NCBI GenBank assembly: GCA_009746045.1
Contig: RPFO01000252.1
Coordinates: 53,660-117,659 of the forward strand
Length of the DNA: 64,000 bases
From: Mesostigma viride
Taxonomy: Eukaryota; Streptophyta; Mesostigmatophyceae; Mesostigmatales; Mesostigmataceae
Direction: 5' to 3'
Below, one piece after another: positions 8,705-60,200 of this stretch. The notes under the pieces are model-generated. The model worked only from the letters and a program-made list of their open reading frames with translations, had not been told where the DNA came from and made no database searches. The position numbers were made by a program, and so were the translations under genes. Position 1 is the stretch's first letter; each line of letters starts with the position of its first letter.

Positions 8705-11700
8705 CTATTTCCCCTTGGCGGCGGCGACCACCGTCTTCTTGACCGTGGACTCCCGCAATGTCACCGTGCGGTTGAGCACGATCTTGCCGGGCGATGAGTC
8801 GGTGTCCACGCAGAAGTAGCCTGAAGGGGGGGCGCAGGGGGGCCGTGATAGCCAGCAAGCAAGGCGAGCAACAACGGGAGAAAATATGCAAGAATGAGCA
8901 AGAACCATCTTCCGAGCCCATCCCCAACCAATCCCCGACAACCCACCCCCAAACCATCCCCACCCCCATCCCCACCCCCATCCCCAACTCACCCCAAAAC
9001 CATCCCCAACCCATCCCCAACTCACCCCAAAACCATCCCCAACCCATCCCCAACCCATCCCCAACCATCCCCAACCCATCCCCAACCCATCCCCAACCCA
9101 TCCCCAACCCATCCCCAACCCATCTCCAACCCATCCCCAACCCATCCCCAACCCATCCCCAACCCATCTCCAACCCATCCCCAACCCATCCCCACCCCAT
9201 CCCAACCCATCCCCAACCCATCCCCAACCCATCTCCAACCCATCCCCATCCCAACCCCAACCCATCCCCATCCCATCCCATTCCCAACCCCCCTTCACCT
9301 CCCCTCAACCCCTCCACCGCTCGACCCCTCCTCAAGGCCTCGTGACCCCCCCTCAACCCCCCTCAACCCCCCCACCCGTCAACCCCCTACCCCATTGACC
9401 CCTCCACCCGTACGTACCCAACCGTTCGAACTGGAACTTGTCGCCCGGCTTGGCATTGGCGATGGGCGGAACGGCCAGGGCCCCCTGGACCACCTGCTCC
9501 GACTCCTGGCTGATGTCGTCCAGCCACTTGTCCAGCGAGTTGGGGTCCTGCCCCGCAGCCAAGAAAGCAAACAATGGATGAGCACATTAGTTGTTTTTTA
9601 GATGTGTAAACCCATTCAGTCATCAAATCATTTTCCAAAAATATGCATGGGTGCCATGATGGGTACCATGCACCAAGACCAGGGGCGGGGCGGGAAAAAG
9701 GGGGAGCCCTACTATGTGCGGTATTCGAGCAGTTGCATGATACTGCATCCAAGTGATATCGATTCGTTCCTTAGCTACCCCAGAGATGCCACGCAGCGCC
9801 GCGACGCATGAAGGCAACAATAATGAATTGATGCCTTGAGACTGATACTTCAAGCACCAGACATTTTACAGAGACATATATAATTATGGTGTTTCGCTTC
9901 ACTACGTATTAGTGTCACCGTGATCACCCACGAAATATGCGTTTCGGCTCAGCGCTTATGATGGTGTTTAGCTTCACTACTTATAAGTGTCACAGTGACC
10001 ACCCACCAATTCCGGTGTTTAGCTTCACTAACTACTACCACTGTGGCCACCCACCTCGGACTTGAAGAGCGTGTCGTAAATGCGGACCTCCACCTTGAGT
10101 GGGTCGGTGCCTGGCGCGCATGACACCCAGTGGAGCACGCCCTGCGGAAACAACGCGGCATTCAGCACGTCAACATGGCAGCAACACAACGTACACACGG
10201 CAGCAACAAAAATGATTGTGAGCGTTAGGAAGGGGGGAATAAAAACGCGAGTTGAGCTTAGGGGCAAGGCAGCGCCGACCACGTGAGCACGGCAGCAACA
10301 AAATGGAAACACAGCAGTGTGTGTTCATGTAAACACGGCAGGAACAAAAGATGCCACCATAAACTGTGAAGAGGGTTTTCATGACACAATCCTTCCAAGC
10401 AACTTCAGAGAAACCAGGAATCCTGCTAGGCACAAGAAAACTTCCGCGCATTGCCCTGCACGGTGGCTGGCCTCGTGAAGTTATCTTCCAGCAAACATCT
10501 CGTGCGCACGTTTGGCCGCCGGACATTAATCCCTCGATTGGCATCCGTCCACCCACCCATGGCTTGCAGCTCTTGGAACCTTCAATGCCATCCACACAAA
10601 ATCCTTGGCCTAACGCCGCTCTATAAACGACATCTCTTTGGGTGGATACATTACAATTTGCAAGTTAATCCTGCGTGCCCACCTTCGGCTTGCTACTCGC
10701 GCAACCTTGAATTCTCAGGCACGAATCTGCGCTGCGCAAAGATTTGGATTGCTGCTCCTGGCGATACTTCTGGCTGCTGACAAGACCATTACCATCATTT
10801 CCATTTATACTCGCACACGCATCTTTGGCATGCTACAGCCCATGCTGTGGACATCACCCGCACAAGCACCTTTGGCTTGCTGCTCTGGCTGCCTGTATTC
10901 CTTTCGCACGCGTCCAAACATGCCCCCACTTTTGCCTTGCTGCTCTTGCAACCTAAAAGCTTTTTTAATATTTACTTACTACTATTTCTTTAGTATAAGG
11001 TGGCCCCACCTTTGGCTTGCTGCTCTTGCAAGCTAAAAGCTTTTTTCACATTTACTTACTACTATTTCTTTAGTATAAGGTGGCCCCACCTTTGGCTTGC
11101 TGCTCTTGCAACCTAAAAGCTTTTTTCATATTTACTTACTACTATTTCTTTAGTATCAGGTGGCCCCACCTTTGGCTTGCTGCTCTTGCTGGCGTCGTAC
11201 GTCGCGCGCAGCTCCTGCACGGTGGTGCCATCGGCGGCCATGATGGCGTCCGTCACCGTGATCGGGTACGCGTAGCTGATGCGGGCCGTGGGAGGAAGGG
11301 ACAAAGGCGGTGACACCGCATAAGACATAAGAGGTGGAAGCAGGTCAACGTGATGGGGTTCGCCACCAATAGATCACCAGGAAGGGGTAGCTGTGGGTAA
11401 GGGGTAGGGGCGCACGAGACCGGGCCAACAAGTACAAAGGAAGCGGGGGATGAGGCATAAAGGATGGCTCCATGGGACGCATACCCCATCGTTCACCGTG
11501 ATGATGTACTCGTGGTTTCGGGCTTAAGGTACAGGGTTTGAGGTTTAGGGTTCAGGGTTACGCGTTTAAGGGCAGGATGGAACATGCCACAAAGTACAAC
11601 GGCAGGTTGGGATGTGGGCAAAGAGAAAGGTTTCATTTGCGTGGAGGCAGGTCACTGTGACGGTGGTCTTGCCGGCAGAGAAAATCAATGCCTAGCCAAC

Positions 11701-12746
11701 CCACCCACCAACCAAGCCAGTGCCGACCATCTCTGGCCCATCATTATCCTTGCCGCCGCAACATGGCGGTCATGCCGCTGCAAAAACCCTTATCTAGCCG
11801 AGCAAGCAAGCAAGCAACTGGTCTAGTGCCACTAAACAACAACCCACTTACAAATAATCCTTGCCATATCATCAACATCATCATCACCATGATCGCCACC
11901 ATCATCATCACCATGATCGCCACCATCATCATCACCATCATCGCCACCATCATCATCACCATGATCGCCACCATCATCATCACCATCATCGCCACCATCA
12001 TCATCACCATCATCGCCACCACCATGATCGCAACCACCATCATCAACATCATCATCATCATGATCGCCACCATCATCATCACCATTCTTACCGCAGCATG
12101 GCGGTCTTGCCCACGCAGAGGCCGTAGTAGTCCTTGGAGTCGACCAGCCGGAAGTCGCTCTGCTCGATGTAGACGATGCGCGAGAAAGGGACCTGCAGGG
12201 CCAAGGGGCAGGAGGGGTGGCAGATGGCAGAAGAAGCGCAGATGGCAGAAGAGGGACGGCATAGATGGCAAGGTATAGATGCAAGTACAAGGAAGCAAGG
12301 GTTCACACAGTTAAGTACAAGGCATACTAATAGCAGTAGAGTTACACGTGATGTGAAGCATGGTGATGAGTTGGCCGATGTCAACGAGCGGAAAGGAGAG
12401 GCCATGGAAGATAACAACGGCTGTCAACAGGCTGGAGGGATATGCTCATCCTCATCTCGCTGCTTCTGCTAGTGGCATCCCTGCATCAAAACAAGGACTG
12501 CTGAGCGCAGCCAGATCAATATGGGGATGTCGAGCGCATGCAGCGTCTCAGGTGCCAGCCGCACACCTTGTAGACGCCGGCCGACGCGTCCTTGTCAGGT
12601 CGCACGAGCGCCTCCACCTCCTCCACCTGGCCCTCAGGGAAGTTGGTGATGACAACCTGCCAGGGGGTGCGGCAACACATCCATGGCAAGCATACATGAG
12701 CCACCACGGCGTGCACATCAAGATAGGAGCTGGGCTAATCAGGCAA

Positions 12747-12781
<35 letters not shown>

Positions 12782-15700
12782 ATAGGCACGGGAGACGCTG
12801 GTACGACAGGCAAAGGCAGAAGCGGGTCCAAGAACTACATCCACTCCATCTATCGCTTCGAAAAGTAACGACTTCTCAAGTGGCTGGATTATATTTCAAG
12901 TGCCAGGCTTTGTGAGGGCCACTCCCGATCTAAGGGGCTGCGTTGCCCAGTTCAAGTGCCCAACGTGAGGTGAGCGGGGAGGGCGGGGAGGGCAGGGAGG
13001 CGGGGAGGGCGGGGAGGGCGGGGAGGGCGGGGAGGGCGGGGAGGGAGGGGAGGGCGGGAGGGAGGGAGCGGGAGGGCGGGGAGGGCGGGGAGGGCGGGGA
13101 GGGCGGGGAGGGCGGGGGGCGGGGAGGGCGGGGAGGGCGGGGAGGGCGGGGAGGGAGGGGAGGGAGGGCGGAGGGCGGGGAGGGCGGGGAGGGCGGGGAG
13201 GGCGGGGAGGGCGGGGAGGGCGGGGAGGGCGGGGAGGGCGGGGAGGGCGGGGAGGGCGGGGAGGGCGGGGAGGGCGGGGAGGGCGGGGAGGGCGGGGAGG
13301 GCGGGGAGGGCGGGGAGGGCGGGAGGGAGGGAGGGAGGGGAGGGAGGGGAGGGAGGGGAGGGCGGGAGGGCGGGGAGGGCGGGGAGGGCGGGGAGGGCGG
13401 GGAGGGCGGGAGGGCGGGGAGGGCGGGGAGGGCGGGGAGGGAGGGAGGGAGGGCGGGAGGGCGGGGGGGGAGGGGAGGGCGGGGAGGGCGGGGAGGGCGG
13501 GGAGGGCGGGGAGGGCGGGGAGGGCGGGGAGGGCGGGGAGGGGAGGGAGGGGAGCGGGTTGTGCACCGTCATAGTAGACCAGCATACTGGTCACTTTAGA
13601 ACACATTGTTGCAAGTAGTGGCTCACCTTGAGCGGGTTCAACACCATCATTGAGCGGGGCGCCGTGCGGTTGAGGTCGTCGCGCACGAAGTGCTCCAACA
13701 ACGCGTAGCGGATGATGTTCTCGCTGGCACGCGCCACACAGCCACAGAGCATGCGACGAGGCACCAGGCACACAGAGGGAATGGAGGGTTCGACAAATTA
13801 TGATGTTCTCACTAAATGCGACACGGGGTGGACCACCAAGGGCAAGAACTAGTGACAGGGCAAGAGCCAAACAAGTGAATAGAGCACGAAACACACACAA
13901 GGGGGGAACCAAGCAAGCCTACGATTGTGATGAAGGGGTTCGGTTGTGACGATGTCCGCATCCCTGCTTGCCACGGGGTAGGAAGGAACCAAGGCACAGG
14001 GAGCTATCGCCGCACACGGCACGCGCCGAGCACCTGACACACAGAGTGAGCATGGAGCACCCACGGCATGATCCAAGCACAACCACACACGCACAGACAC
14101 ACACACACACACAAACTATACTATAGTGACCACACACACGCACAAACTATACTATAGTGACCACACACACACACACAAACTATACTATAGTGACCACACA
14201 TACACACACACACGCACACACACACACACACAACAAGAGTACACCAGAGACATGTAAGGAGGAAGAGGACAAGGCCCCGGGGAGGAGACGCCAAGAGAAC
14301 GCATCATGTCAATACAGGGTGCCGGCACGGCTTCATTGGCAACGTTTTCGCGATGCACCCCCCAAGGGGATTGCCTCGCGAAGCCGTAGTGGGACAAACT
14401 GCGCTGTACGGAAACAAAGGACTGGGAAACCCGACGCAGACAGGGCAGGAGAGGGGAAGTGGGTGGCAACATGCGCAGAGGAGAAGGGGGGGGGAAGGGG
14501 CACACCAAGGCCCAGGGGGGTGGTAGAGAAGCTGGAGTAGGTGGATAAGGGGGATTGTGGCAAGGAGGCGGGCAGGTGCGAGGTGCAGGGGGGCGGGACC
14601 ACATCACAGTCATGCATACCAGCCCGCCACAACCAGGTGTGCACCATTTCCCATCACGAAACCGAAATGCTCTTATTCCCTCACAGTGACAGGAGGCCCC
14701 CCCCCCCGATCCCCGACCAACCCATTCCCCGTCCAGCCCCAGCCCAGCCCGGTGACTGCACCCACTGTTTCTCCTCCACTTTCTCATTGCGAGTACCAAG
14801 CGTCAGCAGTCGTTTGTGTGTGGCAATGCTGGCCTCTACCACCAAATCATCCCCCACTCACTTACGCATGACTCGCAATCGCGCGTGATTTACACTTAGT
14901 TTGTGAACCCTTGACACGATATTCTCGGTGATGTGCGCTCCCTTTGTTCATCATTGTCACACATTCCCGGCGATGGGCACTCACTTGCGCGTGACGCCCA
15001 GCGAGCGGCAGAATGCGTTGAGCGCCTCGGGGGGGCACCCGCGCCGCCGCAGGCCCGACAGCGTGAGCAGGCGGGGGTCGTCCCACCCGCGCACGTGGTG
15101 GTCCGTCACGAGCTTGTTTAGCTGATGGAAAGATGGAAGGAGAGGGGTAAGGGGACATAATCGTGGATAGGGAACGGGGGGGAGAGGGAGAATGAAGTGG
15201 GCAGCAATACTGTACCTTGAAGGAATATTATACGTGCACAAAGAGGTGATGACACTAGGGAATAGGACCAGGGTGCCAAATATACCTGTTCAAGGCATGT
15301 GACATGTTGTAAAAAAAAAATGCAATAGGCAGGCACTGTTGGTGGGGAGAACATCTATAGAGAGATCGAAAACGTGCTGTCCTCGTGCAGCGGATGGAAG
15401 CACCGAGAGCGCCAGCGCGCCCACAAAGACCAAAGGCCAGCGGAAACTGTGCCTATGCGTACCAAAGGCCCCTGCGTGCAGCTCCTTGACTATAATGGGA
15501 CAACATACGCAGGCTGTGCCGTTACAGCCCCATCGGCTACGATCGCATCAAGCCCAACAAGTCCTGCTGCCTTGTTTTTAGACACTCCCAACATCGCCCC
15601 CCCCCCCCCCCTGCGTCAGCACCCCCACAATTAAACGTTCTGATTCTTTCTGACCTATTACCTCCATTCCCCTTTTGCCCTCGCCCCTCGCGCGACCCCA

Positions 15701-18700
15701 TCACTGCGTCGCGGATCACCCACATGCTTCCCTTGCGCCACCAGCCCCACAGTGCAGCTTCCTCGCTCACCTTGCGCTTGGAGAGCACGGTGTGCGTGAT
15801 GTTGAGGCGCGAGTACTCCCACACGACGGGCAGGTACAGGTCCAGGCTGTGGATCAGCCAGTAGTAGGACGCACGCCGCGTCTCAAACTCGAGCGTGCAC
15901 AGCTGGGGCAAGGGGTGCGGGGAGGGGGAGATCAGACAAGAGGCAGGGTATTGGGGGAGGGGGGGGGACAGAGATGTAGAAGGGGGTGGGGCGAGCGGGT
16001 GGGCATAAGAGTAGGGTGAGGATGAGGATATGTCAGCATCGTCATGCAGCGGAAGGCGCCATACTTGAAAATTAACCAAGGGCAGAGGATAGAGAATCCA
16101 CGACGAACATTTGAGCATGAGCGCATGAGCAAAGGAGCTCGTATGCATTTACTGACCATCGCACACCCTGCGACTGGTCCACCTCCCTAAGGCTAGCTCC
16201 TGCACCGTGTGTCAACATATTGCCCAGTCCAGCATCGGCCAACATGCCAGATGGGGAGAGCCGATTCCCTGCATCGCTCGGAGGAGATGGGATGCTGTGA
16301 CCGTGTGATGACGGAAGATGATGCTACGTGAGATTTCAACGAGATGGATTGTTACAAAGCATGCAGGGAGATGTTCACCAGCATGCGGGTAGATACTAAC
16401 CAGCATACGACGAGACGGGTGCTCCGCCACCCTGACATAGAGGTGCGGAGTCTCCATCGAGTCAGGTTCCTGTGAGCGAGGCGAATACCACTTCAAGCGA
16501 GGAACCCAACACCCTGAGGGAAGTTGCGTCGTGGAGCTGAATACATTCATAACTATCTCCGTCGTTGCAGTTGATACAGCAAGTCCAGGCACGTGCCGCT
16601 ACGCTCGGGTTCAAACAAGCAGGGCAGGTAGCATGCCTTTCTGTCACTTAGGTGCACACAGATCGCGACGATACTATTATTATTATTATTATTATCATCA
16701 TCATTATTATAATTACCATTATTATGGATTTGATTATGATCGCTATGACTTTAAAATTAGTAAAATTCCTAGTGTTTAACGCACCGAGTGTGTGACGTCT
16801 TCCAGCGCGTCCACAATGCAGTGCGTGTAGTCGTAGCTGGGATAGATACACCACTTGTCCCCCGCCATCGGGTGGGGCACAAACTGCCGCCACGCGCACC
16901 CGAGCAGTGGGGCGGGAACACCGGGATGAGCAAGGGAGCGCAGGGGAAGAAAGAAATGTTCAAATCAGAAGTGGTCGGTGGGAAAAATTCGTCTCTTAAT
17001 GGCTGCGGACATCAAAAGTGGCGGCTAGTTTCCTAACCGAAGCATCGGGAAGCGGATTGATTATGCCAAACTAGTTGAGTATATAGCTAGTAAGTACAAT
17101 TAATTTGAAGGTTGCCTAAGCCGAGGACAGCCTAACTATACGGCTTTCCCACTCAGTGCGACAACAAGTCCTAGCTAGCTGGTAAGCAGGTGCAACATGT
17201 CCTAGCTAGCCATCTTGTTGTGGTAAGCTGGTGGCCAGGGCCACGTATGCACAAGCGAGCGAGCGAGCTACTTTGATGAGTTATGCGATCAAATCCAGCT
17301 GTCCCCACCTCTCACCTTGACCAGTAGTGGCAGGCATCCGGTACGGTACGCGCTAGCAAGCTATTCGCCCGGTTACGTTACGCGATCAGGCCCATCATGC
17401 CCTCGCCAGCCACCATGAACAGTGTCAGCTCGCCACCCACCATGAACAGTGTTAGCTCGCCACCCACCTTGAACAGCACGGCGCCACCCACCTTCGCGCG
17501 GTAGCCACCCACCTTTATGCAACCCGCACGCGCGCCACCCACCTTGGGAAGTGTCAGCGAAGGCGCCACCCACCTTGATGCGGTATGCGATCAGGTCGAG
17601 CATGTTGTAGTTCTCGTTGCGCATGTCCTGCTTCATGCGCAGCGTGGCCGCCCCCTCCGGGACAAGCCCCCGCCGCATGTCGTTGAACAGCCTGAGCGAC
17701 TCCTCCACGGGGCGGTTGCGCCAGGGGCTGTCCATCTTCTTCTCGCGGTACTCCTTGATCTCGTCAGCCGTCTGTGCAAGTGTGTGTGGGTATGAGTGTA
17801 AGCGTGTGGCAGGCGAAAGCAACCACAGGTATACTCGACAGGAGAGTCAGACGGTTACATACTCATAGATCTCATCCAAAGTAGTTGAATTCTGTGATCC
17901 TAATTGCTTCTTTGGACTCACAAGTGGGTAGGGCCGAGGCCAACTAACCAGTTAGTACACACATGCATCAAACGGGCAACGATCCCACCGGAACGGAGGT
18001 GGTAAACTAATAATGGATAGGGAGGCGTGGCTGTATGCAGTAGTCACGCCTGCCGTTTAAAAGGGGTGGGGAAGGCGTGGCCAATGACAGAAGCACCAGG
18101 GATCAAACAAACAACGGGGATCAAACAAACAGGGGAGTCAGGCTGCTGGCGTGTACAAGGCGGTAAAGCCGTACTCCCCTGATCTCGCCCGCCACCGGGC
18201 GGGGGAGAAAGAGGTGGTCTGGGATGGATGGTCGCAAAGGAAACTTTACTACTGACAGCATTAGCAACTCTAATTTTATTCCGGGCACTGGAACTAGTGG
18301 ACACAGCGTGCTGATTCTGGAAACGCTCAACACGTACATGGCTTATCCACTCAATTCTGTGATACAAAACACACCGGCCAAATCATGGAGACATCCACAA
18401 GGAGGCATCACCCACGAGGTGAGATTGATAACAACAAGAGCATGGCGAGAATGTGAGTGGGATTCGTTGCTAGTGCCCACGGCACGTGCTAGCGCCCACG
18501 CGTTCGAATCCCACTAGTGCCCCATTCCGCGGTACCTGGTGGCAGACGTAGGCCTTGTCCCGCTTGATCAGCTCCACGGCCAGGTCGTACAGCTCCTGGA
18601 AGTAGTCGCTCGAGTAGGTGATCTGCGCCGGGAGGGGGGAGGGAACGCAAGCATGGCACAAGATGCGGAAGATGGAATTAACCAAGATTGTGTGCCCATG

Positions 18701-20267
18701 TAGTCGCTCAAGTAGGCAATCTGCGAGGGTGCAAGCGGAGGCACACACGAAACATGCCATGACAGATTATTACTGTACACAAGCCTAGATAGGACTGCGT
18801 GCCTGGGGTTGCCTTGCGAGGCCGTAGTGAGTGTGGATATCGAGGTGTTCAGCGGCGTCATGATGCAGGTAAGCAGTGCACAAGAGACAGAAGACAGCAT
18901 TAACGACGCGTGCCTGTGTGATTTCTCCAGTAAGTAATCTGCTAGGGAGGGAGGGGGGGGCGGGCCAGCAAGCACGATACGTATGGCAGAAAAAATGACG
19001 CAAGAAGGCATTTCTTATTCTATAAAAGGCAAGATAATTCTATGTCAACAACCCGTCCTGCGGCCATGCCCACCTTGCACCACTTCCATCCCAGCCACGC
19101 CACAATCTCCTGGATGTGGTCAATGTACTCCTGCTTCTCCGCCTCCGGGTTCGTGTCGTCGTACCTGGGGGGGTTATAATGTACGCGTGGTATAGTTATA
19201 ATGTATTGGAGGGGACGCACACAGACAGGCATGCATGCAAAGTGTGCAAGAAAGTGTCATGACCGGGTGCAGGTCATGCCCAGCCAGAGTGGCGAACGCA
19301 GGAATGAATGTAATGACCATGCTGTGAAGCCAGCGATGCCACACATACATGCGCATGTCTCATGGGACGCAACAGTACGCCAGCCTGGGGCAGACAGGTA
19401 TAAAGAGTAAGAAAATAAGGCAACAAGCGCATGCTCGCCATCGCAAGCATACGGCATTCCATACGTACCAATCCAGCCCTGCAGCAGGTACTGTAAATCA
19501 TGTTCCCCCTTGCGGCTTTGCCGTGCAGCGCAGCTCGATTGTCTCTCTGACGCACGGGCAACCAGGGACCGCTCCTATTCACCGCTCCTATTCACCGCTC
19601 CTATTCATCGAACGTGCCCACTGGCAACTCTTCATCTTCCCACCGTCACCCTCCAAACCTTCAACTTCCTACAATGTCCTCAGGGTAATTCAGAGAAAGA
19701 TACACCGCAATCGTTCCCCGGGGGTTGGGGTGGGTACAGAAGAGAGCCACGATGACGGAAAAAAGAAGGGTGTTTCCAATCCTATCTTCCCGCCATTCTT
19801 CACGTTTCAAGCAACCTTGAATACCCCCAACGTTGTTTATTCCTGCATTTTAATAATGAGCCTTGATTAAAACCAAAAGTACGGCCAACAATTTATTCAG
19901 CCCCAATTTATCCCGGCTAGAGATTGCATTGCAAAAATCAAGTCTCCGGCAAGGACAATGGCACTCAACAGGCAGCATGACAACCCATGAGCTCAACCTT
20001 TGAACCACGAGCTAAAACTTTGGCACGCCGCCCTCATTCCACGCAAGGTCAGCACCGCCATTAAGTACCGATTCATGATACACCAAGAACTGCCGCCCTA
20101 CATGTTAAGACAGGTAGCGCAATAGTAAGGATGCCATGCTACCTATTCAAAAACTATTCAGAGATATCGGCCCTATTCCGTGATTCGGATATACAGATAG
20201 ATTCACGGCCGCCCACCTGAGGTAGCAGATGCCGCCGCGCTCCTTGGCGTATCCAAAGTCGATGTGC

Positions 20268-20311
<44 letters not shown>

Positions 20312-23300
20312 GGGGAAGCGAGTGACCACCTTGCCGCCCGTGCGCTGTAGGTGGGCGGCGAGCATCTCCTTGGTGTTGGCTGGCCGCATGATGGTGCCGT
20401 CGCTGAAGGGGATGACCGTGTGCACCTGAGGCGGCGGATAGGTTGAGAGAGAGCAGCAGCGGGGTTGTGAATGAATTACCTACAGGTGACTGCCCAAGGG
20501 CAAGGCACACATAATCGCGCGGAGGTGCACTCTGCATATCTCCTATTCGCAGCTTTCCTCCCACGTTTCTATGCTGGGTCGTATATACCACAGATCTCTT
20601 ATACATCAAGGAGACAACCAGATCTCTTACATATTTTGCTCCCCCGATGGTGTGATGTTCTGTGAACGATTCCATGTTGGAACTGCAACCATTGCAGAGA
20701 GAACCAAGCCCATGTCTACGCAAGCAATACTCCTTGATCCCTACATTGCCTGCATGTTCAGTATGGACAAAGGGGGTAATTTTACGAAGAAAAAAAACGA
20801 ATGATCCTCGACAGTTGCTCCCATGACCCGGTAGAGCATACGAATAGCCTGCAAAGGGAGACGGTGCAAGACACTGCCTGGGGACGCACCAAGCAGAGAT
20901 GTACCTCCCTGCCCAGCCATCACCGTTGCTACTGATCTCTAACCAGCAGAAGCGGTTAAGTCAACATGTCTGAAGTTTGCACCCACTGGGCACTCCCAGG
21001 AAGATCCTTGCCTGCAGCTGGGCTGCCCCCCCCCATCCCCCTCTCCAGCAAAAAGAATGCCTGCCTGCATGATGTGAATCGGCCCCATAATGCCGCATGA
21101 CTGAACACAGAAGCACAACAGCCCGCATAGCACAGGCAACGCCCAAAGGGGATTAATAGTCTGGATGTCCCTCCATCAGCGACCCACCTGGTGGTTGTTC
21201 TCTGGAGATGGGAAGAACGAGAAGGGGTCCGCGTCCTCAGCGACTCCCTCCCCTTCGCCAGCAGCAGCCGCAGCATTATCGCCGCCGTCGGCTGTGGCGG
21301 CAGCTGCAGGGGCAGCCTCCTGTAGCACAGAACAAGATAAATTGTAGACGGAACATAGGAAGACCAGCTGTGAGTAACAGCCACTCAGGAGAGCAAGAGC
21401 GGCATTCTTAAGTGCGATTCGGGGTAGCCGAGCAAGCCATATCCCTAATAAACCTACGCCATATCAGTTAGTGCAAATATTGGCCGGAATCCTTAGGCCG
21501 CTCGGCATAAAGGATCCGGACCAATATTTACCCAGCTATAACCGCTCACTGGTAACCTAAGCTTATGCATGTATCCTCTCCACACTCCTCACCACCCCAC
21601 CCCCGCGTGGCCCACCCCCCACCTTGGGCTTCTTCTCCACCTTCTTCTTCTTCTTGGGCTCATCATCCGCCGCCGTGCGCGGGCCCAGCAGCGCCTCGAT
21701 CTGGCGATCCGTCTCCTCCTGCGGGGGAGGGCAGGATATGTGTAGATGACAACGAGGGGTACGGTCATGGGGGCGAAGATGATGGGGTACAGCCATTACC
21801 GCGTTCCGTTGCGATCGACGACTGAAATTCGGTGTCCCACCTTAACGCGATAATGCAACTTAACGCGATAATGCAACTTAACGGTAGAATTAGGCTAGAA
21901 GCCCACCCCCTCCTCTCACGGACTTCTATGTGCATTCAACAGCCCTCGTCAAGCCCGATCCAGCTGCAGCATCAATGAAAGCCGCCCAAAGTCCATTTTC
22001 CAGGCCAGATATTTTCTGAGGAAAACGGGCTGCAATACACGCCGGGTGCAGCCACCCAGCCCGTGCGTGCAATGGATACCACAGATGTGTGTTTTGACCC
22101 TAGAAAGTTTTCACTTTTTGGCGGTCCTTAATTGCCAGCCGGCTTCACGTTTGATTGTGGCGAAAAATGGGAACAGTCGTGAGGGAAGTTTCATTTACTG
22201 CATGCATGCTCTTGGATCCGTAAGTTGTACCGCAGTCCGCAGGCTGCAAAATTGATATTGTAAGGTTGCATGCGCGCTTTTCACTGATGCCAGGAGGCGG
22301 GGAAGCCTGCGAATCCAGTGGAGCTTGCGTACTTTGCCGCCTGAACGTCACAATATAGCGGGTCCGGACGTGGCAAAACGGGGCCTCCTCTGCGGCCAAG
22401 AATGGCCTGACACCAACAAATTCAGTCATTACCGCGTTAAGTTGTGATGGCACCCAGGCTTAAGTTGCAGTCGTCGCCCAAGCTTCGGCGTCGCAACTTA
22501 ATGCGGTAACGCGACCTTAGAAATCGCAACTTAACGCTGTCATGACTGTACAGGAATGGGGAGGGGGGGGGAAGATATGTACACACAGCAGCTGCACATC
22601 CTCTGCCCACAGAGGCGGCACAATCTCCCTCTAAGCCGGTGTCCAGAACGGGCCACTTGTAATGTGTCACAAACTATGCACAACACCTTGACACCGGACG
22701 ATGCTTCTTATACCGTCACCGGCACGCCATCACCATTTGGCCACCCATGCCTGCCCACCACCAACACCAGCAGCAGCAGCATCCCCACCACCTCCTGGCC
22801 ACCTGGCCACCACTTTGGAGTGTAAAGTTAGGGTTTAACCTGGCAACTATCACGCGTTGCAACACCCATCCATTGGTATGGTCAGTCTGCGTAATTTACA
22901 ACCTACTGCGTATCCACCCGCCAAAGTCTACAGCCAACAGCCCCAACTTGACCATGTGTGCGCATGCTCGTCCGCTAATATGCCCATCCCCTAATACTAT
23001 GCCCCATGCCATACAACATGATGCTGCCCACATCCTGCGCCCGCACCTTGATCATCTTGGTGTCAGCCCATGGGTGGATCGTGCGCGCCTCCGCCAGCAG
23101 CTTGCCGACTGGATGACAACCCAACAAGGGAGGAGCGAACAAGCACGGTGGTAGAGAATGCATTCGCATGAGCGTGCCGACTGGACCACAAGGCAACACG
23201 GGCAAAGTGAACAAGCATGGTGGTGGAGAATGCCATTGCATGGGCGTGCCGACTTGACGACAACACAAAGGGCATCGTGGCAGAGAGTGCAATAAAGCAA

Positions 23301-24396
23301 GCTGGCCGATTGGACATGGAACCAGAGAGGGAGGGAACAAGACGATGGAGGTGACACACATGAAAATGGTAGAGGAGCCACAGGGTAGGGTGCCGGTAGG
23401 CAAACCAGTCACGCACCACAGAGGTGCCCGTCTTGACATTACAGCGGCTTGGACTAGATAAGGGATTGACCATGCACAGGAACGCGTGCTGCCTGCAAGG
23501 ACAGTTCCCTCCCATAAACTCATGGCTACATGCAGTGCACGGACAATGCCACCCGAGCCATATCAGGGCTCACTTTTACTGGAACAAAAGGATAACATTC
23601 GGCGAGAAACTGTACCGCAAACTTGTCTACACGGTTAGCGAAAAGGGTCGTCTGCTACCAGCGACCAACGTTGCCTCAACCATTCCACGCCCCCATGGCG
23701 CCAGCTGCATCCACACGCACCTTTCTCCCTACCAACCTGACCCAATTGTAACCACCACCACAACTCGGGTAATCCAAAGTCCCTACAAGCAGTCACCCTT
23801 TCCACTCAAACAATTGCCCTGTTCTCCAGAAACAGTGTCCCAGAAATATCACCCGCCGCCGTCACAGAGCTGGTGCCCATCCTAGGCCACCGCAATAGCC
23901 ACCAGTCTAACCCTCAACGCCGCACGCACGCACCGTTCGCATGGTATCGCTCCTCCAGCAGCATCTCCTTGTTCTTTGCAACGATGCTGGTGACCGCGGC
24001 CGCGACCTGCTCCGCCGTCACAGTGACACCTGGGGGTGGGGGGTGGGGGGGCGGGAGAATGGCATCACAGGGGGGGGAGGGTGAATGGCATCCGTCACCA
24101 TTTCCCACACATGCATCCAACGCGGATGCGCTCCGGATCAGCCACTGAGGCATCATCCATCTGACGTACTGAACCTTCTTCCAGATCGGTGCCTGTATTT
24201 TATCCACCCCCCCGCACACAATTGTATTTTACCCCCATGCCACACACATTTATCAAACCAATTGATGAAATTAAGCTACAGTCTACACATGTGGTGTGCC
24301 CAGGATGCCCGACTACATCGGGCCACATGGTCACCGTCACTGTAACACTTGCCCCCCCCCCCCCCACGCACACACACACACACACGCACACACACA

Positions 24397-24467
<71 letters not shown>

Positions 24468-27400
24468 AACGTTGGACACGTTGGACACGTACATCATATG
24501 AACCACATTACCGCCCCACGTACCCATGTCGCGCGCAACCGGAACAACACGACATGGGCCATCAAGAGCACACGGCCCAGCTCCCACATACCCACGCCGC
24601 ACGCGGCCTCAAACTCCGCCACGTTGACGGTCGCGTCGCTGCCCACTTTGGCCATGTGGGACAGAGCCGCCTCCAGCTGCTGCACGCTGCGGATCTGTGT
24701 GTGTGGGGGGGGGGGGGGGGAGTGCAGTGGTTGCGGCAGCCAGGTGATGGGGACAAAGAAGTCAGGAACACACACAACACAGCGGGAGCAAAGTCGGCAG
24801 GAATCACATGGGACACCCACGACATGGGGCCAGGTCATGTTGCGGATCTGTGTGTGGGGAGGGGGGGGGCGGAGAAGGGAAGGGTGGTGGCAGGGGGGAA
24901 GGGGGACACAACCAGCCCATGACACAGCCAACGGTGTGGGCCAGGTCATGGCATGCTGCGGGTGGGCTGGGCAGGAATGCGGGGGGGGGGGGGCTGGTGG
25001 GTAAGGAGTCATGAACACATGACATGGGCCATTAGACGCTGCGGAACTGGTCAAGGGAGGGGAGTGGTGGCGTCAGCGCGTGTTCGGGGTCTGGTGAGGG
25101 ATGGGAGGGAAAATGCCAAGAAGACCTCAGAGAAGACAACAAGAGGGTATGGCCGAAAAACGCCCTGACACAGGTGGACCGTGTCGAGGAGTTCCCAGTC
25201 ACCAGCATTGCGGAGGAAAATCCACATCTAGGAGAACGCCACAAGTACCTGCATCGAGTTGAAACACTACGCACTGTACAATCTCCGCGTCTAGGAGACG
25301 GAGACTCGGAAGTGAACAGCACAGCGCGGCGCGCAGGCGCGCACACACACACACGCACACGCACATGCGCGCATACCATGTGTCAGCACGCACCTTCTGC
25401 GCCGACACGTACTCGCAGACCAGCTTGCGGTGCTGCAGCGCATTGGCAGGGTACTTGGCCACGATCTGATGGGCAAGCGGGGCAGGCAAGCAGTGTGCGT
25501 GGATGTGGGGCATGGGGGGGGGGGGGGGGGGGGGGGCAATATCGGCACCACTCACCCACAGCACACACTCACATCCAGCAAGGGCACATCCAGCAAGGGC
25601 ACATCCAGCAAGGGCACATCCAGCAAGGGCACATCCAGCAAGGGCACATCCAGCAAGGGCACATCCCGCAAGGGCACATTCAGCAAGGGCACATCCAGCA
25701 AGGGCACATCCAGCAAGGGCACATCCAGCAAGGGCACATCCAGCAAGGGCACATCCAGCAAGGGCACATCCAGCAAGGGCACATCCAGCAAGGGCACATC
25801 CAGCAAGGGCACATCCAGCAAGGGCACATCCAGCAAGGGCACATCCAGCAAGGGCACATCCCGCAAGGGCACATTCAGCAAGGGCACATCCAGCAAGGGC
25901 ACATCCCGCAAGGGCACATCCAGCAAGGGCACATCCCGCAAGGGCACATCCAGCAAGGGCACATCCCGCAAGGGCACATCCAGCAAGGGCACATCCAGCA
26001 AGGGCACATCCAGCAAGGGCACATCCCGCAAGGGCACATCCAGCAAGGGCACATCCAGCAAGGGCACATCCAGCAAGGGCACATCCAGCAAGGGCACATC
26101 CAGCAAGGGCACATCCAGCAAGGGCACATCCAGCAAGGGCACATCCCGCAAGGGCACATCCAGCAAGGGCACATCCAGCAAGGGCACATCCAGCAAGGGC
26201 ACATCCAGCAAGGGCACATCCAGCAAGGGCACATCCAGCAAGGGCACATCCAGCAAGGGCACATCCAGCAAGGGCACATCCAGCAAGGGCACATCCCGCA
26301 AGGGCACATTCAGCAAGGGCACATCCAGCAAGGGCACATCCCGCAAGGGCACATCCAGCAAGGGCACATCCCGCAAGGGCACATCCAGCAAGGGCACATC
26401 CCGCAAGGGCACATCCAGCAAGGGCACATCCAGCAAGGGCACATCCAGCAAGGGCACATCCCGCAAGGGCACATCCAGCAAGGGCACATCCAGCAAGGGC
26501 ACATCCAGCAAGGGCACATCCAGCAAGGGCACATCCAGCAAGGGCACATCCAGCAAGGGCACATCCAGCAAGGGCACATCCCGCAAGGGCACATTCAGCA
26601 AGGGCACATCCAGCAAGGGCACATCCCGCAAGGGCACATCCAGCAAGGGCACATCCAGCAAGGGCACATCCAGCAAGGGCACATCCCGCAAGGGCACATC
26701 CAGCAAGGGCACATCCAGCAAGGGCACATCCAGCAAGGGCACATCCCGCAAGGGCACATCCAGCAAGGGCACATCCAGCAAGGGCACATCCAGCAAGGGC
26801 ACATCCAGCAAGGGCACATCCAGCAAGGGCACATCCAGCAAGGGCACATCCAGCAAGGGCACATCCAGCAAGGGCACATCCAGCAAGGGCACATCCCGCA
26901 AGGGCACATCCAGCAAGGGCACATCCAGCAAGGGCACATCCCGCAAGGGCACATCCAGCAAGGGCACATCCCGCAAGGGCACATCCAGCAAGGGCACATC
27001 CCGCAAGGGCACATCCAGCAAGGGCACATCCCGCAAGGGCACATCCAGCAAGGGCACATCCCGCAAGGGCACATCCAGCAAGGGCACATCCAGCAAGGGC
27101 ACATCCCGCAAGGGCACATCCAGCAAGGGCACATCCAGCAAGGGCACATCCAGCAAGGGCACATCCAGCAAGGATCAGAAAGGGCAAGGATCAGCGAGCA
27201 ACAGCCAGCCAGCCGTAAGAATCGGCGCCTACAACCCAGCCTCCTTCCAGCGAACGTGATGATCTGGTAGACGGAACAGGCAAGCATGTGATGCATCAGC
27301 AAGTGCGGGGGTGATGATATTAACAAGGCTATGGGCCTGTCGCCAACATGGCATAGGAATAAACATGTAAGTGCCCATGTAATCCTTCTTCTTGATGTGC

Positions 27401-29880: not shown

Positions 29881-29887
29881 AACAACA

Positions 29888-31709
<1,822 letters not shown>

Positions 31710-35099: not shown

Positions 35100-50070
<14,971 letters not shown>

Positions 50071-52596: not shown

Positions 52597-52938
52597 ATGC
52601 CCAGACGCAACAGAATAAATAAGGGTGGTCAATCTGGATTTCCTTACTATGCCGTGGCCCATGATGGGGGCGAGGGTAGACCAGCCATATTTTACAGTTG
52701 GAAGGCATGTGAAGAACACATCAAGGATAAGATAATGTCTAAAGACTCTAGTGCCAAGTGGAAGGGATTTGATAACATCATGGACGCAGATAGGTTTGTT
52801 AGGGAACACATGCCATTGCCTGAGGGGATGCACACTACACGTGAATGCTCTAAACCACCCACGCTCAGCAGTCAGGGGGAGGGGACAGCAGTTACAGTGA
52901 CCTTCTCTCAGTTGACCATTGGTCCCAGCAAACAGTAG
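52597..52938 (+). CDS. Viroplasmin-like (RNase H1 N-terminal-type) small protein, retroelement ORF
   Basis: 113 residues. The core has YYAVAHDGGEGRPAIFYSWK, CEEHI, KWKGFDN and DADRFV, matching the fold signature shared by the N-terminal RNase H1 hybrid-binding domain and the caulimovirus viroplasmin domain: YAVA, IF.SW..C...I, KGF, A..F. It starts with MPRRNRINKGG, a basic N-terminus. No RNase H catalytic domain follows. It lies between the LTR leader and a gag-like ORF, so it is probably a retrotransposon accessory protein that may bind nucleic acid. Confidence 0.65.
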   Translation: MPRRNRINKGGQSGFPYYAVAHDGGEGRPAIFYSWKACEEHIKDKIMSKDSSAKWKGFDNIMDADRFVREHMPLPEGMHTTRECSKPPTLSSQGEGTAVTVTFSQLTIGPSKQ

Positions 52939-53072
52939 AGGAGACCATTACTAGGGAGTAGTATTAGGTTCTATAGTTATAGCTCTATAGCACGTGGTTG
53001 CTCCCTCTCTCTTTCTCTCTCTTCCTTCCTGGGGAGGTGTTGCCTGCAGTGTAAGGTACCGGTACGAGCACC

Positions 53073-53380
53073 ATGCCAACACGGTCCCAAACAAGGAACG
53101 CCAGAGATACAGAGGAAGAGACTAGAGAACGAGATCCAGAGAATACAGAGGTAGAACCGGTAGACAACCACGAGCACGGTACAGAGAGGATAGAGGTACC
53201 ACTGCACGTCCAAGCAGGGACAGATACAGGTGAGGTCATGGAGAGACCTGCGGAAGGCTTCCCACGATCCAGAGATCAGAACCCTAGGTTCCCAGCGGAT
53301 GGGGACAATCTAGACGCCTTAACAAGGCAGGGAGATGACAGGAACGACCGAGAGAGACTCCAAGAGTACTCGCAGCAGCA

Positions 53381-53441
<61 letters not shown>

Positions 53442-53810
53442 CAACCGCAGCAGCAGCAACAGCAGCAGCAGCAGCAGCAGCAGCAACGGTCACCGCAGCA
53501 GCAACGGCAACAGCAGCAACCCCGGATGCAGCAGCAACAACCCCAGACGAGACCACAATGGCTACCACCTGATCCAGAGCAGCAGGGAGACGAGAATGAA
53601 GATGCCCTGCACTACCGTTATCAGCAGCCAGCCACAGGACGGCCATTGCATCCCTGGGCGGGGCGGGGGCGTCCCCAGGGACCTCCGCCGGTCGGCCACT
53701 CACCGGGGCAGACGCAGAGTGGGCGTCCCCAACATCTACTGCTCCAACCTAGGGCCATTGCTGGTACTTTTGACGTCATGAAAGCAGCGTTTTGGACTAG
53801 TGGAATATGA
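53073..53810 (+). CDS. Gag-like poly-Gln ORF of the retrotransposon (probably truncated)
   Basis: 245 residues opening MPTRSQTRNARDTEEETRER. It has an acidic/basic charged N-terminal third, a CAG-encoded poly-Gln tract (codons at about 53374-53540), and a Pro/Gln-rich tail. No zinc knuckle, protease, RT or integrase follows before 54.27 kb, so the element appears cut off inside or just after gag. Assignment as gag rests on position and the TRSQTR-type opening, and is tentative. Confidence 0.4.
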
Positions 53811-54270
53811 TTTTACAGCATAAAAAGTCCATTTTATCATGAATGAACATGGCCAACAACCCCAAGTGCCCCTAAATTTCTCAATATTTGTAGAGAAATG
53901 CTACTTCTCATAATTAAAACCTGCACAAATGCACAATTTGGGGCATGCATGTGAAAGTTTGAAGTACAATGAGGTTTTACATTTTTCAATTATTAATGGT
54001 ATCTCATTCTTCAATCAATCAATTTGCAATCGTCCAAACAATTTATTCATTTCATACATGTCCGAATATGTTGAAAGAACACATGCAAGTGCTCAATCAG
54101 CGTGGACCCCCTTGGACGCGCCCCACCATATATACATTGGACACGTCACCCCAACTACTAAACTGCCCAAAGTCACGGTAACTGATCCAACTACTATGTA
54201 CATCTGCATTTCTCCACGTTGCGGTGGGCAATTACGTGCAAAACGCGATTTCGTGCAAAGTCCTCGCCCA
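53811..54270. other. AT-rich spacer
   Basis: No supported gene. It lies between the truncated LTR element and the 3' end of the unknown minus-strand gene. Confidence 0.35.
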
Positions 54271-57200
54271 TCATCGCTTGCCAGGTCGATATGAAGGAAT
54301 GTTGTCCCAGCTGGCGCCTTCCTTCAGGAGAGTAACATGTTCTCTAGCGAACTTCAGAGGGAAACGAAACTTTTGCTCGCACTCATTACTCCAACCGAGG
54401 TCGTGCCCTTCATCAAACCATCTGAACACCACCTTCTCCCTCTCTTTGCCCAGGAGGGTGCCAAAGAGCGGAAAATCTTCCTTCTTGGGGTACTTGTGCT
54501 CCCAGTTTATGCACACGTCGTCTACCCATTTCGAACTCCAACCTCCGCGACTCAGTTTCGCGCCATCCATAAAGCGCATCCGGACGTCCGGCCGAACGTC
54601 CCTGATTCGGTTTTCGGCCGTCGCATCTCTGCCCTGACCACCACCCTTCTGCGGCTGTGCAGGTTCGTCGGCACCCTCCGTCTCCTGCCCCGCCCCTCGC
54701 CTGCCCCCTCCCCGACGTTTTGCCTTCTGCCCCTGCGCAGCCGCCGCCTCTGCCATCAACTCTTCGTACGTTTTTTCTGGCTGACCGCACGGTAAGGCTG
54801 GTGCGTGAGTTGGTGCGTTGGGTGGGAGCTCGTCCCCTCCCGCCCCCGGTTGTGCAACTGGTTCGCCGACCGCGGCCTGGCCAACAACACGGCCGGCCTC
54901 TCTGGACACAGTCCCAGACGCGGATCCACGGGGAAACCGAACTGGAGTTTCTTCTTCGCCTTTCCCTGCACGTAAGCACATGCCAATTAACATGAATACG
55001 GAAGGGTCGTGTGAGAAATCAATGAAGCCATGGACTGATGCAAAAAAACTTATGTAGAAATATATATTAAGGTACTTATTAAACTCGTTTATTGAAAATG
55101 AAATTTACCGGCCGAATGTACCGTTGGAGCGTGGAAGGGCATCCTTGGTCGATCGAAGATATCCGTAAATGTTAACGGTGCGGTCGATGTCCCTGGCGGC
55201 GCCTCAACATCGACCACCTCAGTCGGGCGCATCAATCCGGCAAACGCCGGCCCTCCACCTGAGACTTTCGGCGGACCCTCCACGTTACGAGCCTCCAATA
55301 CCCTCTTCTGCAGTGGGGTGCTCGCAACAAAATCCGTGTCAGCCGACGGCTCCGGATCGTCATCCTCATTCAGCAGTATCGTGTTCGGGCATTGCTCCAT
55401 CCCCGTCGAGCGGGGGGGCAAAGTCATCACAACCGTCCTTCCTGACGACGGTACGGGATCGTCACCCAGACCCAAAGAAACCGAGGCGAGGGCGGGGGTC
55501 CCCTCAACCGGGGGTCCCCATGAATCCTGACGAGGCCTCATTCCCACCTGTTGGACACGACCGCCTCCCGTAAATCGGGAACGCCCGCCGGCGCTACCAG
55601 TAACAGGCCGCGAGCCTGCTTCCTGCTGGCGATCCCCCTCCTCATCACAGATACGCCCGCCGGCGTTTCCAGTAACACGCTGCGAGCCTCCTTCCTGCTG
55701 GCGATCCCCCTCCTCATCACAGATACGCCCGCCGGCGTTTCCAGTAACAGGCCGCGAGCCTCCTTCCTGCTGGCGATCCCCCTCCTCATCACAGATACGC
55801 CCGCCGGCGTTTCCAGTAACAGGCCTCGAGCCTCCCTCCCGCTGGCGATCCCCCTCCTCGTCACAGATACGCCCGCCGGCGTTTCCAACGACAGGCCTCG
55901 AGTCTCCTTCACCAGCACGCTGGCGCTTACCTCCCCCCCTGTTGTCTTCATCCCCCCCCATTGTCTCATCACGCAAGCCTCCATCACCCCGACTGCGCTT
56001 TTTCCCTCCCCTTCCATCTCCTCCCCCGTCCCTCTCCCCCTCCCCCCTCCTCCCATCTCCCCATCCCCATCCCCTTTCTCCCCCTCCGCCTGCCCCTCAC
56101 CCATCCCGGGCGGGTGCCCCTCAGCAATATCCTCCTCCTCGTCCTCCTCGTCCTCCTCGTCCTCCTCGTCCTCCTCGTCCTCCTCCTCCTCCTCATCCTC
56201 CTCCTCCTCATCCTCCTCCTTCTCATCCTCATCCGCCTCCCCCTCTTCCCCCTTCTCCGAATCATCATCCTCATCAGACGAAGAATCGTCGTCGGAAAAG
56301 TATTTGAGGCCTTCCCACCCATCTTCAACAAGCCAATATTTGATAAGGCGGACCAGGCGCTTCCACCGGCGGATATGGGCGGGCTCCCCGAACACCAGCA
56401 GAACTCTGCAGGGTCCCCTAAAAAGGGCGTTGGTCATCTTGTCAACCACATCCCACACGACCGGGCTCAAATGCGAGGAGGGTTTGGGAATGTTGCTCTC
56501 CTCCGGAATGCAGTCTGCGTCCCACTTGCGCAGGTTCCTCCACTTCTCGTTGCTGTCAGCTGCCAGGTCCAGCACAGCAAACGCCTGGTCCTCCAGCGAC
56601 CGAGGAATTTTGTAATTCCCCGCGCACAACTCGTCCACCACCTTCGTCACCACCAGATCCTTTCTTTTTTCGTTTTCCTTCCATGTCATTGTCCTGTATG
56701 CGATCCAGTCGGATCCCATCCTCACCCCCTTCCAATCGCTGTAGGCTTCCAACCTTTCCTTCCACCCCTTCTTGGCCTTGGTAGTCCCCTCCTCCGCCGC
56801 CTCCTCGACCTCCTTCTCGACCTCCGCCGCCGCCTCCTGTGGCACACCCAGCAGATGTTTGGTCTTCACCCCCAAATCGTCATACAAATGACGGGGGTGG
56901 GAAGCGAGCAGCCCTCTCGGGAACTTCCAGTCCTTCTGGTCGACCACTTTCCTTTTAGCCGGCGGAAGGTCCCTCAGCGTGAGAATGATCGCCCTCATGG
57001 CCGTGACGACCACCCGCCAAAAGTCTCTGGTCAGGCGGCAGTCGGCGATGAACTTGTCGAGGTCCGTGGCGAAGGTGCCCTTCAGCTTCACGCCAAACAC
57101 GTGCTCCCTCACCAATACGGGGTCGAAAGTCCCGTTTAGTTGTTTGCAAGCGGCCATCAGCTCGGGGTTCTCCAGGAACTTGATGTGGGCGAATTGCTTT

Positions 57201-60200
57201 GCCGCCTCTATCAAATTCTTGGCGACTTCCATTATTTTTATCAGGTTGCTGGGAGGGGCCTCACAGGACATGATCGGCGCTTGGATCAGGCTGTCGAAGT
57301 ACTGGAAACTCGCAAGTTCCCGATGCGCGGTGAAAATGGACAGTTCGTGCGCCTTGTCTTTAGGGCGCGTGTCAAGGAAGTCTTGCCGAGCCGCGATATC
57401 CTGTGCGATCGCCGGCTTGCCGTCGACAGCGGGCTTCAAAGGGTCCTCACACCAGAACAGCCAGCGCTGCATGAAGTTCTTCTGGTCCGGCCCCCACTTG
57501 TCCGTCTCTTCAGCCCCTCCTGCCTTGTCGCCTGCGCCGTCCCCTTCGGCCTTGGCTTGCTCTCCTTTCTGCCAAAAGGGCTTCACAATCGCCCAGATCT
57601 TGCCGTACAGAGGAGTTGGGAGAGACACGCCCTTCCCTCTCTTGACGGGTCCATATGCCTGGTAGGCCCGGTGCACATCCCCAAGCGCTGAGCCCCACGT
57701 TGCCTTGGCTTGGGCTGTGTCCTCGGCGTTCATGGCGTTCCCGAGCTGCCTGACAACTTCGATCATCTTGCCGACTTGTTCGGTAACCTGCATCCCCGTA
57801 GGGCAACAACGCGCAGAGACACATCGACAGTCCTCCCAAATAAGCACAACTCAACTGAGAACAAGAATACGACTGACAGAAACGCCGGCGGTCGCATCTT
57901 GACCGAACTAATGGCATACTGAAATTAACACAAGAAAACCACTTATAGAAACGCCGGCGGTCGCAACCTGGCTTACCTTCTGTTCACGGATCTGCCACCA
58001 GGTCGGCAGGATGGTCTCACCCTTGAGCATCTGCACGTCCACCCCCCCGAAATTCGTCCAATCAGTTGCCCACTCCTCCAGCTTCGCCGCGGCCACGGTC
58101 TTCGTGACCTCCTGCTCCTTCCCTCCCCGCGCAACGACCCTGAGCTTTTCCGCCTTCATGAAACCATTCAGCATTGCCTGGTACCACACAGATCTTTGGT
58201 CCACCGTCATATTGTCGGTGACCAGTTCGAATTTCACCGATTTGATGAGTGTGGTAAAGTGGTTCCCGTCCAGCACGAGAAAGCCGCAAATGGCTGGCGG
58301 CAACGGTGGCTTCTTCTCGAATGGAGCCATCTCCCAGGCGGACTTGCACAAACTGTCCAAAAGCGCGGCCTTTCTCACGTCCACGGGCTTAAGATCGTCC
58401 AGCAAATCGGCCCGTCCTGTCAGAACCGCGGTGGAAGCAGCTTCGGCCATTCCCTTGGCCGAACTCGTTCGCAGGTAGATATCAATTTCTTCGTCAGTCA
58501 TTGCGCGAGCGTAGCCAGCCTTCATTGTCCGTGCCCCCCCATCTCCCCGAAGAGTTGCGCGAGCTGACGCTGGGTGCCTTCCTTTTTCATCCAGTCATGA
58601 AAAGTGTTGGGGCACCGGTCAGCCAAAAACTGGAACGAGTACCGCCACACAGGAATCACCAGCTTGTCGTGGCCGTAGTCGGACTCCGAGTTTGCAAAAA
58701 TGGTGGCGTTCTGCTCGGCTCTAGACAGATGCAAGTCTCGTGCGAGGAGCTTCTGAGGCCCCACGAACAGGTTCCTTGTCCACACCCGATTTCGATGCAC
58801 CAAGGCTTTGGACATCTCATCGAGGTCCCGAGGCTGAACGGCAAGCTGCTTCCGTAACCGTTTGCCCTTCGCGATCTCATCGTTCACATCCAGGATGTCA
58901 TCATCATCCTGCGACACCGGGGACTTCTCCCATTTCTCAAGCAGAGACACGGGAGCATCCGCAACCTCCAAGTCCTTTCCTTTCCCCTTTCCCTTCAGCG
59001 CCTTCCCCTTGTAGGTCGCAAGTGCTTCGGAGAGTCCCTTCTGGTGTTCGTCGACGGCAGCAGTCCACGTACTATCTATTTTCATGTTCTCGCGGCGCGC
59101 GTGCTGGTCGAGGCTGATTGAGTACAGGATGGCCGCGTGGGTCGCCCTCTCGGCCTGCACGTACTGCAGTGATGCGAAAAAATCAGGAAAGCATAACCAA
59201 AAGGAATAAAGTAAATGTCGATTGAGAAACGCCGGCCGTCGCAACCTACATGAAACCTGAACCTCAACATCAAAGCCCCCCTCACAACAGAGGTATACTT
59301 ACCTCGTTCCCCTTAACAATGATATGAAAAAATCAGGAAAGCATAACCGAAAGGAATAAAGTAAATGTCACACTTGAGAAACGCCGGCCGTCGCAACCTA
59401 GATGAAACCTAAACCTCAAGATCAGAGCCCCCCTCACAACAGAGGTACACTTGGCTCATTTCCCTCAACGATGCGAAATCAGGAAAGGAAGTAAGTGTTA
59501 GTCAAAAGGAAGTAAGTGTCACACTTAAGAAACGCCGGCCGTCGCAACCTACATGAAACGTGGACCTCAAGAACAAAGCCCCCCTCACAACAGAGGTAGA
59601 CTTACCTCATTCCCCTCAACCGCTGTTGCTTCAGCCGCTTTCTTCGACCCCTTCGCGATCTTCGGAGACTTGTCCTGGCGGGCATCGTGTTCCTTCAACA
59701 TCTTGATCAGAGTCTTGGCGTCCTTCTCCGTCACCGTCAACAGTTTACACTTCCTCTCCTTCCCTTTGCCCTCGAACAGGTTCTCCTGCATCCACTTTAT
59801 CAAGGCCTTGGCGCTCGGGATTTCCTCAGGCTGTGTGGCGCCATCGGGCCGGCACGCATTCTTCACGATCAACTCAGCGACTTGATGGAGAATCATCATC
59901 TGGTTCCGTACCTCAGGTGGGGCTTCTTCCGTTCTCACCTCGGCCACAACCCACTTTGCCAACTTCTTCAGTTGATAAGCATCCGCTTGCTCCTTAAAGC
60001 GTGTCATTTTCGCAGAATCGCCGTCGCTTAAACCCGCGCCCTCTGACACAGGCTCACCGACAGCGATAGCCCCCTCTCCCTGGAGATTTGCCCCACCCTG
60101 ACGACCGGCTTCCTGCAAGAACATTATCAACGGAAGATTTTTAATGTAAGAAAAGTGTAAAGAAACGCCGGCCGTCGTAACTCTGTCCATTGAGGACGAA

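Follow-up and report, generated by a model that had tools for sequence, protein, structure and literature searches.

Splice-junction copies in Mesostigma viride introns: probable by-products of local DNA duplication, with a possible donor bias

The DNA examined here is a stretch of 64,000 nucleotides of the Mesostigma viride genome (C1490:53660-117659 of the 440 Mb assembly), referred to below as the window, and our subject is the copies of exon-intron junctions that its introns contain. Three genes in the window bear on the finding: a GlnRS gene on the minus strand, a plus-strand gene that carries the cyclic-nucleotide phosphodiesterase (PDE) domain PF00233, and a minus-strand gene at 54-61 kb that had no match in Pfam. 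Pieces of PF00749 and matches to GlnRS chains in the PDB, such as 4ye8, identify the first of these. Exons of GlnRS are numbered as in our own model; adding three gives the numbers of exons 11, 12, 19 and 20 in an earlier note on this DNA, and the exon 4 and exon 6 acceptors of that note are not placed with certainty in the model. The exon 10 acceptor of the model is without AG and is probably misplaced.

Junction-bearing arrays and single copies occur in introns of all three genes (Table 1), and Tandem Repeats Finder returns 63 rows for the window. At the exon 16 donor of GlnRS, the first copy agrees with the junction in 28/28 bases over -20 to +8, and six copies match at 17/26 or better. When the 36 junction sides of this gene, that exon 10 acceptor among them, were compared with 100 random window segments, copies reached p <= 0.01 at 7 sides and p <= 0.05 at 12, where chance gives about 0.4 and 1.8. 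The earlier note had described arrays of junction-containing units in introns of the three genes, and most of the places it listed do hold them; those at which the description fails are the exon 17 donor (its exon 20), where the array has no exon bases, and the exon 8 acceptor (its exon 11), where there is a single copy. It was also right that the copies always lie on the intron side, but this is expected, because insertions on the exon side would break the protein.

Table 1. The GlnRS gene and the junction copies and arrays of the window (window coordinates)
Feature	Position	Strand	Description
GlnRS gene	8732..25465	-	19 exons in model, from 25394-25465 (first) to 8732-8820 (last); start of exon 10 placed manually
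Array at exon 16 donor (junction 11170)	10924..11189	-	80-bp unit x3.3 with 20 exon bases and donor
Exon 9 donor copies (junction 17574)	17405..17573	-	GGTGG[GC]TGGC at six further sites, seven with true donor
Farther copy of exon 9 end (-28 to +2)	17270..17299	-	24/30, at +275
Copy of exon 15 end (-20 to +1; donor 12092)	11756..11776	-	19/21, at +316, p 0.05; beyond CAT-type array 11864-12085
GTGGGTGG repeat after exon 17 donor (junction 10055)	9999..10007	-	no exon bases beyond last G
Copy of exon 12 donor junction (-11 to +7)	14855..14872	-	16/18
Copy of exon 13 end (-24 to -3)	13552..13572	-	sequence match
Copy of exon 8 acceptor junction (-5 to +21; acceptor 18622)	18700..18725	-	23/26, single diverged copy
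72-bp array at exon 4 acceptor (junction 23108)	23099..23268	-	includes 10 exon bases
Copy of exon 13 acceptor junction (-2 to +12)	13800..13813	-	13/14
Array at PDE-domain gene acceptor (exon start 44999)	44642..44893	+	four copies (about -19 to +7) at 71-bp intervals, each 23/26
151-bp array at donor 59606 of 54-61 kb gene	59176..59620	-	15 exon bases; two further copies at +137 and +289

To the window we added 27 further stretches, for a sample of about 0.32 Mb or 0.07% of the genome, and usable introns came from 26 of these 28 sequences (loci). Most stretches were chosen for TCP1 or aminoacyl-tRNA synthetase genes, blind to repeats, while eight (L026-L033) are random or arbitrary positions. 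Gene models were predicted ab initio, with Pfam support for part of them. They come from our own small gene finder, trained iteratively from a seed of 59 exon pieces matching Pfam (GC content at third codon positions, GC3, 0.87), which recovers 9,636 of 10,836 Pfam-matched bases plus most GlnRS exons; it miscalls two arrays in GlnRS introns as exons (17382-17542 and 11877-12086), so that junctions are lost and none is created. Flanking exons had to have a coding score above 5 or above 8 and to satisfy length limits, giving sets of 112, 114, 138 or 141 introns. The main probe was 26 bases over the junction (-20 to +6 for donors), a copy being a match of 17/26 or better. Donors, acceptors and intron interior were compared with equal probes and targets (about 400 intron bases searched), and ratios were bootstrapped by locus. 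Simple-sequence probes were excluded from junction-copy counts, and interior matches within arrays were excluded from the comparisons of dispersed copies, including those on the 112-intron set.

Junction copies are real and recur outside the window in this sample. Within 600 bases, donor probes find 65 copies at 17/26 or better and acceptor probes 31, compared with a mean of 2.3 for either when tried on other introns. Across the 26 loci a copy is present at 36/121 donors (29.8%) versus 17/126 acceptors (13.5%), and at 492/3278 and 422/2972 interior intron probes (15 and 14%); the first 26 intron bases used as a probe give 18/124 (14.5%), and exon-interior probes have an intron copy in none of 109 and none of 114 cases (0/223 in all). 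Donors therefore exceed the interior by a ratio of 2.2 (95% interval 1.4-3.5), while acceptors are at parity with it (1.0, 0.5-1.7). A second measure with 20-base probes gives 1.9 (1.2-3.1) for donors and 1.5 (0.7-3.0) for acceptors, and with the window excluded the counts are 32/98 donors and 13/101 acceptors. The donor excess depends on how strict a match is demanded: it is 25/121 versus 10% at 19/26 (ratio 2.0) and 18/121 versus 8.7% at 21/26 (1.7), and near-identical copies (23/26) are not enriched (9/121 versus 7.8%, 0.95; acceptors at this threshold, 1/126). The claimed excess of repeats at exon boundaries over intron interior thus stands for donors at the main threshold and falls for acceptors and for near-identical copies. 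Where the upstream exon is supported by Pfam, a probe of -10 to +10 matches in 15/44 cases and one of -20 to -1 in 7/43; in the interior of such introns, from +60 on, 4 to 8 of 41-44 match. At the random or arbitrary positions L026-L029, L032 and L033, donor probes match in 0/26 cases versus 9/88 for the interior, the exons there being ab initio only and possibly false. True tandem arrays span 3 donors in 114 introns and are present in 36 introns. Dispersed short donor copies occur in 16/112 introns, none of the 16 in the window, and dispersed interior matches number 54 in 86.8 kb.

The copies are in direct orientation, with 388 direct matches (114 introns, many of the matches from repeat-rich ones) versus 3 inverted (112 introns). 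In 17 donor events anchored on exon positions -26 to -7, the per-site match is 83-84% at -26 to -1, 79% at the GT and 68% at +3 to +6; farther out it falls to 50% at +7 to +10, 33% at +11 to +20 and 35% at -40 to -31, so that it is about at chance beyond +10 and before -30. Acceptor copies (11 events) are approximately the mirror image. The 16 dispersed donor cases reach 16-41 bases into the exon (16 being about the detection limit) and from -2 to +10 at the intron end, and ungapped donor blocks measure 19 to 47 bases. When searched to 500 bases from the donor, the copy of the upstream exon end lies near the donor and not at the 3' end of the intron: the first copy is 37-416 bases away, with a median near 100, and 16/37 fall at 80-112.

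Spacing is regular in several multi-copy introns. Second copies often sit at about twice the distance of the first (95/179, 98/185, 87/171, 102/189 and 107/213), and one acceptor of a TCP1 gene (L014, minus strand) has four upstream copies at 85/172/256/338, in steps of 82-87 bases. All four keep CAG, and their spacers are unrelated. Identity does not clearly fall with distance (Spearman -0.03 to -0.17 for donors, -0.03 to -0.38 for acceptors), which gives no age order; in L014 and L022, changes that adjacent copies have in common, judged by eye, point to copy-of-copy growth. Traces of a tandem unit, seen as homology of the flanks at p < 0.05, are found in about two fifths of junction copies (10/25; 5/16 donors and 5/9 acceptors). 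In 22 multi-copy introns picked by hand from copy listings, flank homology is present in 10/22 exon-copy and 10/31 copy-copy pairs. A fixed distance ruler was considered and set aside. The 80-112 peak holds 24/53 matches versus 37/638 for all interior probes, many of the latter array matches, and it is weakly distinct from non-array interior duplications, which have a similar spacing (median 88-102), at 24/53 versus 10/54 (p 0.004) or, with one per intron, 6/24 (p 0.13).

We favour, with restrained confidence, ordinary error-prone local duplication that is tolerated on the intron side, together with a possible bias towards donors, and the junction copies are probably for the most part decaying by-products of local DNA duplication. 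Introns would undergo frequent local direct duplication, tandem or near-tandem, which may originate in staggered or patch-type repair of breaks followed by end joining. A duplication that crosses a junction could leave both the reading frame and the original, outermost splice site in place; the extra copy would then be harmless within the intron and decay neutrally, whereas duplications within exons would be purged. Junction copies would stay recognisable for longer because selection holds their exon partner constant, and donor junctions may be duplicated more than the intron interior. The repair mechanism, the purging and the use of the outermost site are what we infer; what the data show is the direct orientation and intron-side position of the copies, their regular spacing in several introns, tandem-unit traces in about two fifths, the donor excess and the acceptor parity with the interior. 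Also in favour of this reading are the similar spacing of non-array interior duplications, the lack of donor enrichment among near-identical copies and the small number of donors (3) spanned by true arrays. Decay itself is neutral-like in the data: mismatch between exon and copy (29 events) is 10.4% at first, 8.6% at second and 15.7% at third codon positions, the pattern that a neutral copy and an exon changing chiefly at third positions would give.

Uniform duplication was simulated in introns subject to random tandem duplication and deletion, substitutions and indels, with constrained exons and purely exonic duplications purged; the rates and the exon-purging rule are assumed, and the sample they are compared with is small. 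Several results weigh against duplication of this ordinary kind as the whole account. Four parameter sets gave a donor/interior ratio of 0.93-1.28 at 17/26, versus 2.2 observed; uniform duplication predicts about 4 dispersed donor introns, versus 16/112; exon sequence 34-60 bases away from the junction should be copied at 2-10%, versus 0/223; and flank homology, at 3/11 pairs with a block identity of at least 0.8 and 7/11 below it, does not follow the pattern of whole-unit tandem duplication. Scaled per interior copy per kb, dispersed donor introns come to 0.03-0.07 in simulation versus 0.23 observed. When exon reach is capped in the simulation, the exon interior is emptied of copies, but the donor enrichment is lost as well. 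At 21/26 the simulated ratio is 1.23-1.68, with the observed 1.7 at its upper edge. A purely uniform process is disfavoured for falling short at donors at 17/26, though it hardly does so at 21/26, and these gaps are why a possible donor-specific bias is kept. The excess over the uniform model is modest; what is left over is a donor excess that is strongest for diverged copies, plus the short exon reach.

A rival account is a process anchored on junctions, which we consider rather unlikely. Here about 16-41 exon bases and up to about 10 intron bases would be copied directly and repeatedly, tens to hundreds of bases into the intron, by breaks or template jumps focused on junctions, for example through transcription- or splicing-linked stalling. 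Stated for donors, and held just as tentatively, exon ends with up to about 10 intron bases would be repeatedly copied some 60-110 bases into the intron from donor hot spots, and introns would lengthen from their junctions by transcription- or splicing-linked repair. The fall of the per-site match on both sides of the donor block (17 events) is consistent with such anchoring, as are the right end of the block within +12 in 16/17 dispersed cases (38-66% in simulation), the 16 donor introns where about 4 are expected, and the 8/11 high-identity copies that have no flank homology. Against it, acceptors are no higher than the interior, near-identical donor copies are not enriched, and the ratio at 21/26 lies at the edge of the simulated range. 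The 80-112 peak is barely set apart from non-array interior duplications, the six random or arbitrary positions gave no donor copy, and the window itself holds none of the 16 dispersed cases. Slippage or repair anchored at junctions had been suggested in the earlier note; slippage or repair is likely in general, and the anchoring survives as a donor bias alone, with a ratio that drops from 2.0 at 19/26 through 1.7 at 21/26 to 0.95 at 23/26.

Selection that maintains decoy or backup sites beside the true splice sites, also proposed earlier, is improbable. At +20 to +140 of introns the sense strand has about 2-3 times the density of donor-like sites of the antisense strand, and CAG is kept throughout the L014 acceptor array (4/4 copies), as such selection would have it. 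The sense excess is gone, however, over whole introns (248 versus 287 at score 5), and a similar bias is present in exon bodies (50 versus 20). Selected decoys are not supported: GT is intact in 12/17 copies at donors and AG in 4/11 at acceptors, a preservation no higher than that of the remaining block, and divergence from the exon affects every codon position.

Still harder to credit is that mobile DNA inserted near junctions and left long target duplications, or that spliceosome-protected fragments were inserted with RNA as the template. A block of about 30 bases does flank unrelated spacer on both sides in a minority of cases. Yet ungapped donor blocks vary in length from 19 to 47 bases, the apparent copy-of-copy growth in L014 and L022 argues otherwise, and the 28 spacers within the 0.32 Mb share no common family, their similarities being to their own introns plus one 26-base L013-L022 match; word counts find mainly simple sequence and splice-like words, and element insertion is set aside on this sample. 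Separately, about ten of the 156 introns carry TAATTAAT-type words, which are found on both strands and far more often than expected. Three further candidates fail at once: recursive splicing at AG/GT ratchets, because several copies end in CCG or GGG and not AG; nested removal of an inner intron, because among dispersed matches both exon-end copies are found in only two introns (L023 3750 and 5500); and intron gain by AGGT duplication, because the copies are at the wrong end of the intron.

Several known systems resemble parts of this picture. Zhuo et al. reportedly described, in 2007, human introns arising from tandem arrays, in a study of intron origin and alternative splicing; the likeness is that splice sites lie inside repeat arrays. 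Tandem genomic duplication of AGGT is a route of intron gain, as outlined in a review (PMC3443670), and there too a local tandem duplication carries splice-site sequence and the mRNA can stay unchanged. The difference is that the segment between AGGT copies becomes the intron, whereas here the copy of an exon end sits close to that exon inside an intron that already exists and is usually long, and no new intron is shown. In rice, patch-mediated break repair yields short duplications, tandem and non-tandem, from within 200 bp of breaks (Vaughn and Bennetzen 2014, via the review PMC7407515, section 4.3), and that section mentions no preference for splice junctions. Introner elements, as presented for Amoebophrya (PMC7789003; also PMC9860276), are likewise repeats tied to introns genome-wide; they form dispersed element families, whereas each copy here resembles its own junction. 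The view that no named mechanism gives this pattern is thus half right: break repair is on record as a source of local duplication (PMC7407515), and a splice-junction bias of duplication was not found in the literature searched, which was thin in subscription papers.

The window and the sample contain other features. A 15-bp satellite (107 copies at 96% match, window 25570-27173) lies just upstream of the first GlnRS exon in the model, and a perfect (TTG) repeat of 607 units at 100% match (29889-31709) is unusually long and pure. A 348-codon open frame at 6828-7874 seems by eye to encode a YADD-type motif, which we take to be that of a reverse transcriptase, the frame then probably being a retroelement fragment. 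L001 and L002, on contig C2011, are AT-rich (34-35% GC) with uninterrupted GluRS/GlnRS-type frames, and C2011 also has an uninterrupted Cpn60 frame; one reading offered is that it is a bacterial symbiont, contaminant or organelle contig. TCP1 matches on C1641 and C887 have identical scores and are possibly haplotype copies, and L025 (C1106:2463000-2472900) includes 2,086 N among its 9,901 bases, perhaps a gap.

On the reading of ordinary local duplication, these introns are a readable record of duplication events: the source, an exon, is nearly constant, so that change on one side is enough to measure their age. For gene finders they mean many false splice sites that look nearly perfect. Should donors truly draw duplications to themselves, intron growth would proceed from the ends and be coupled to transcription or splicing, and simple genome comparison could then test whether splicing and DNA breakage are linked.

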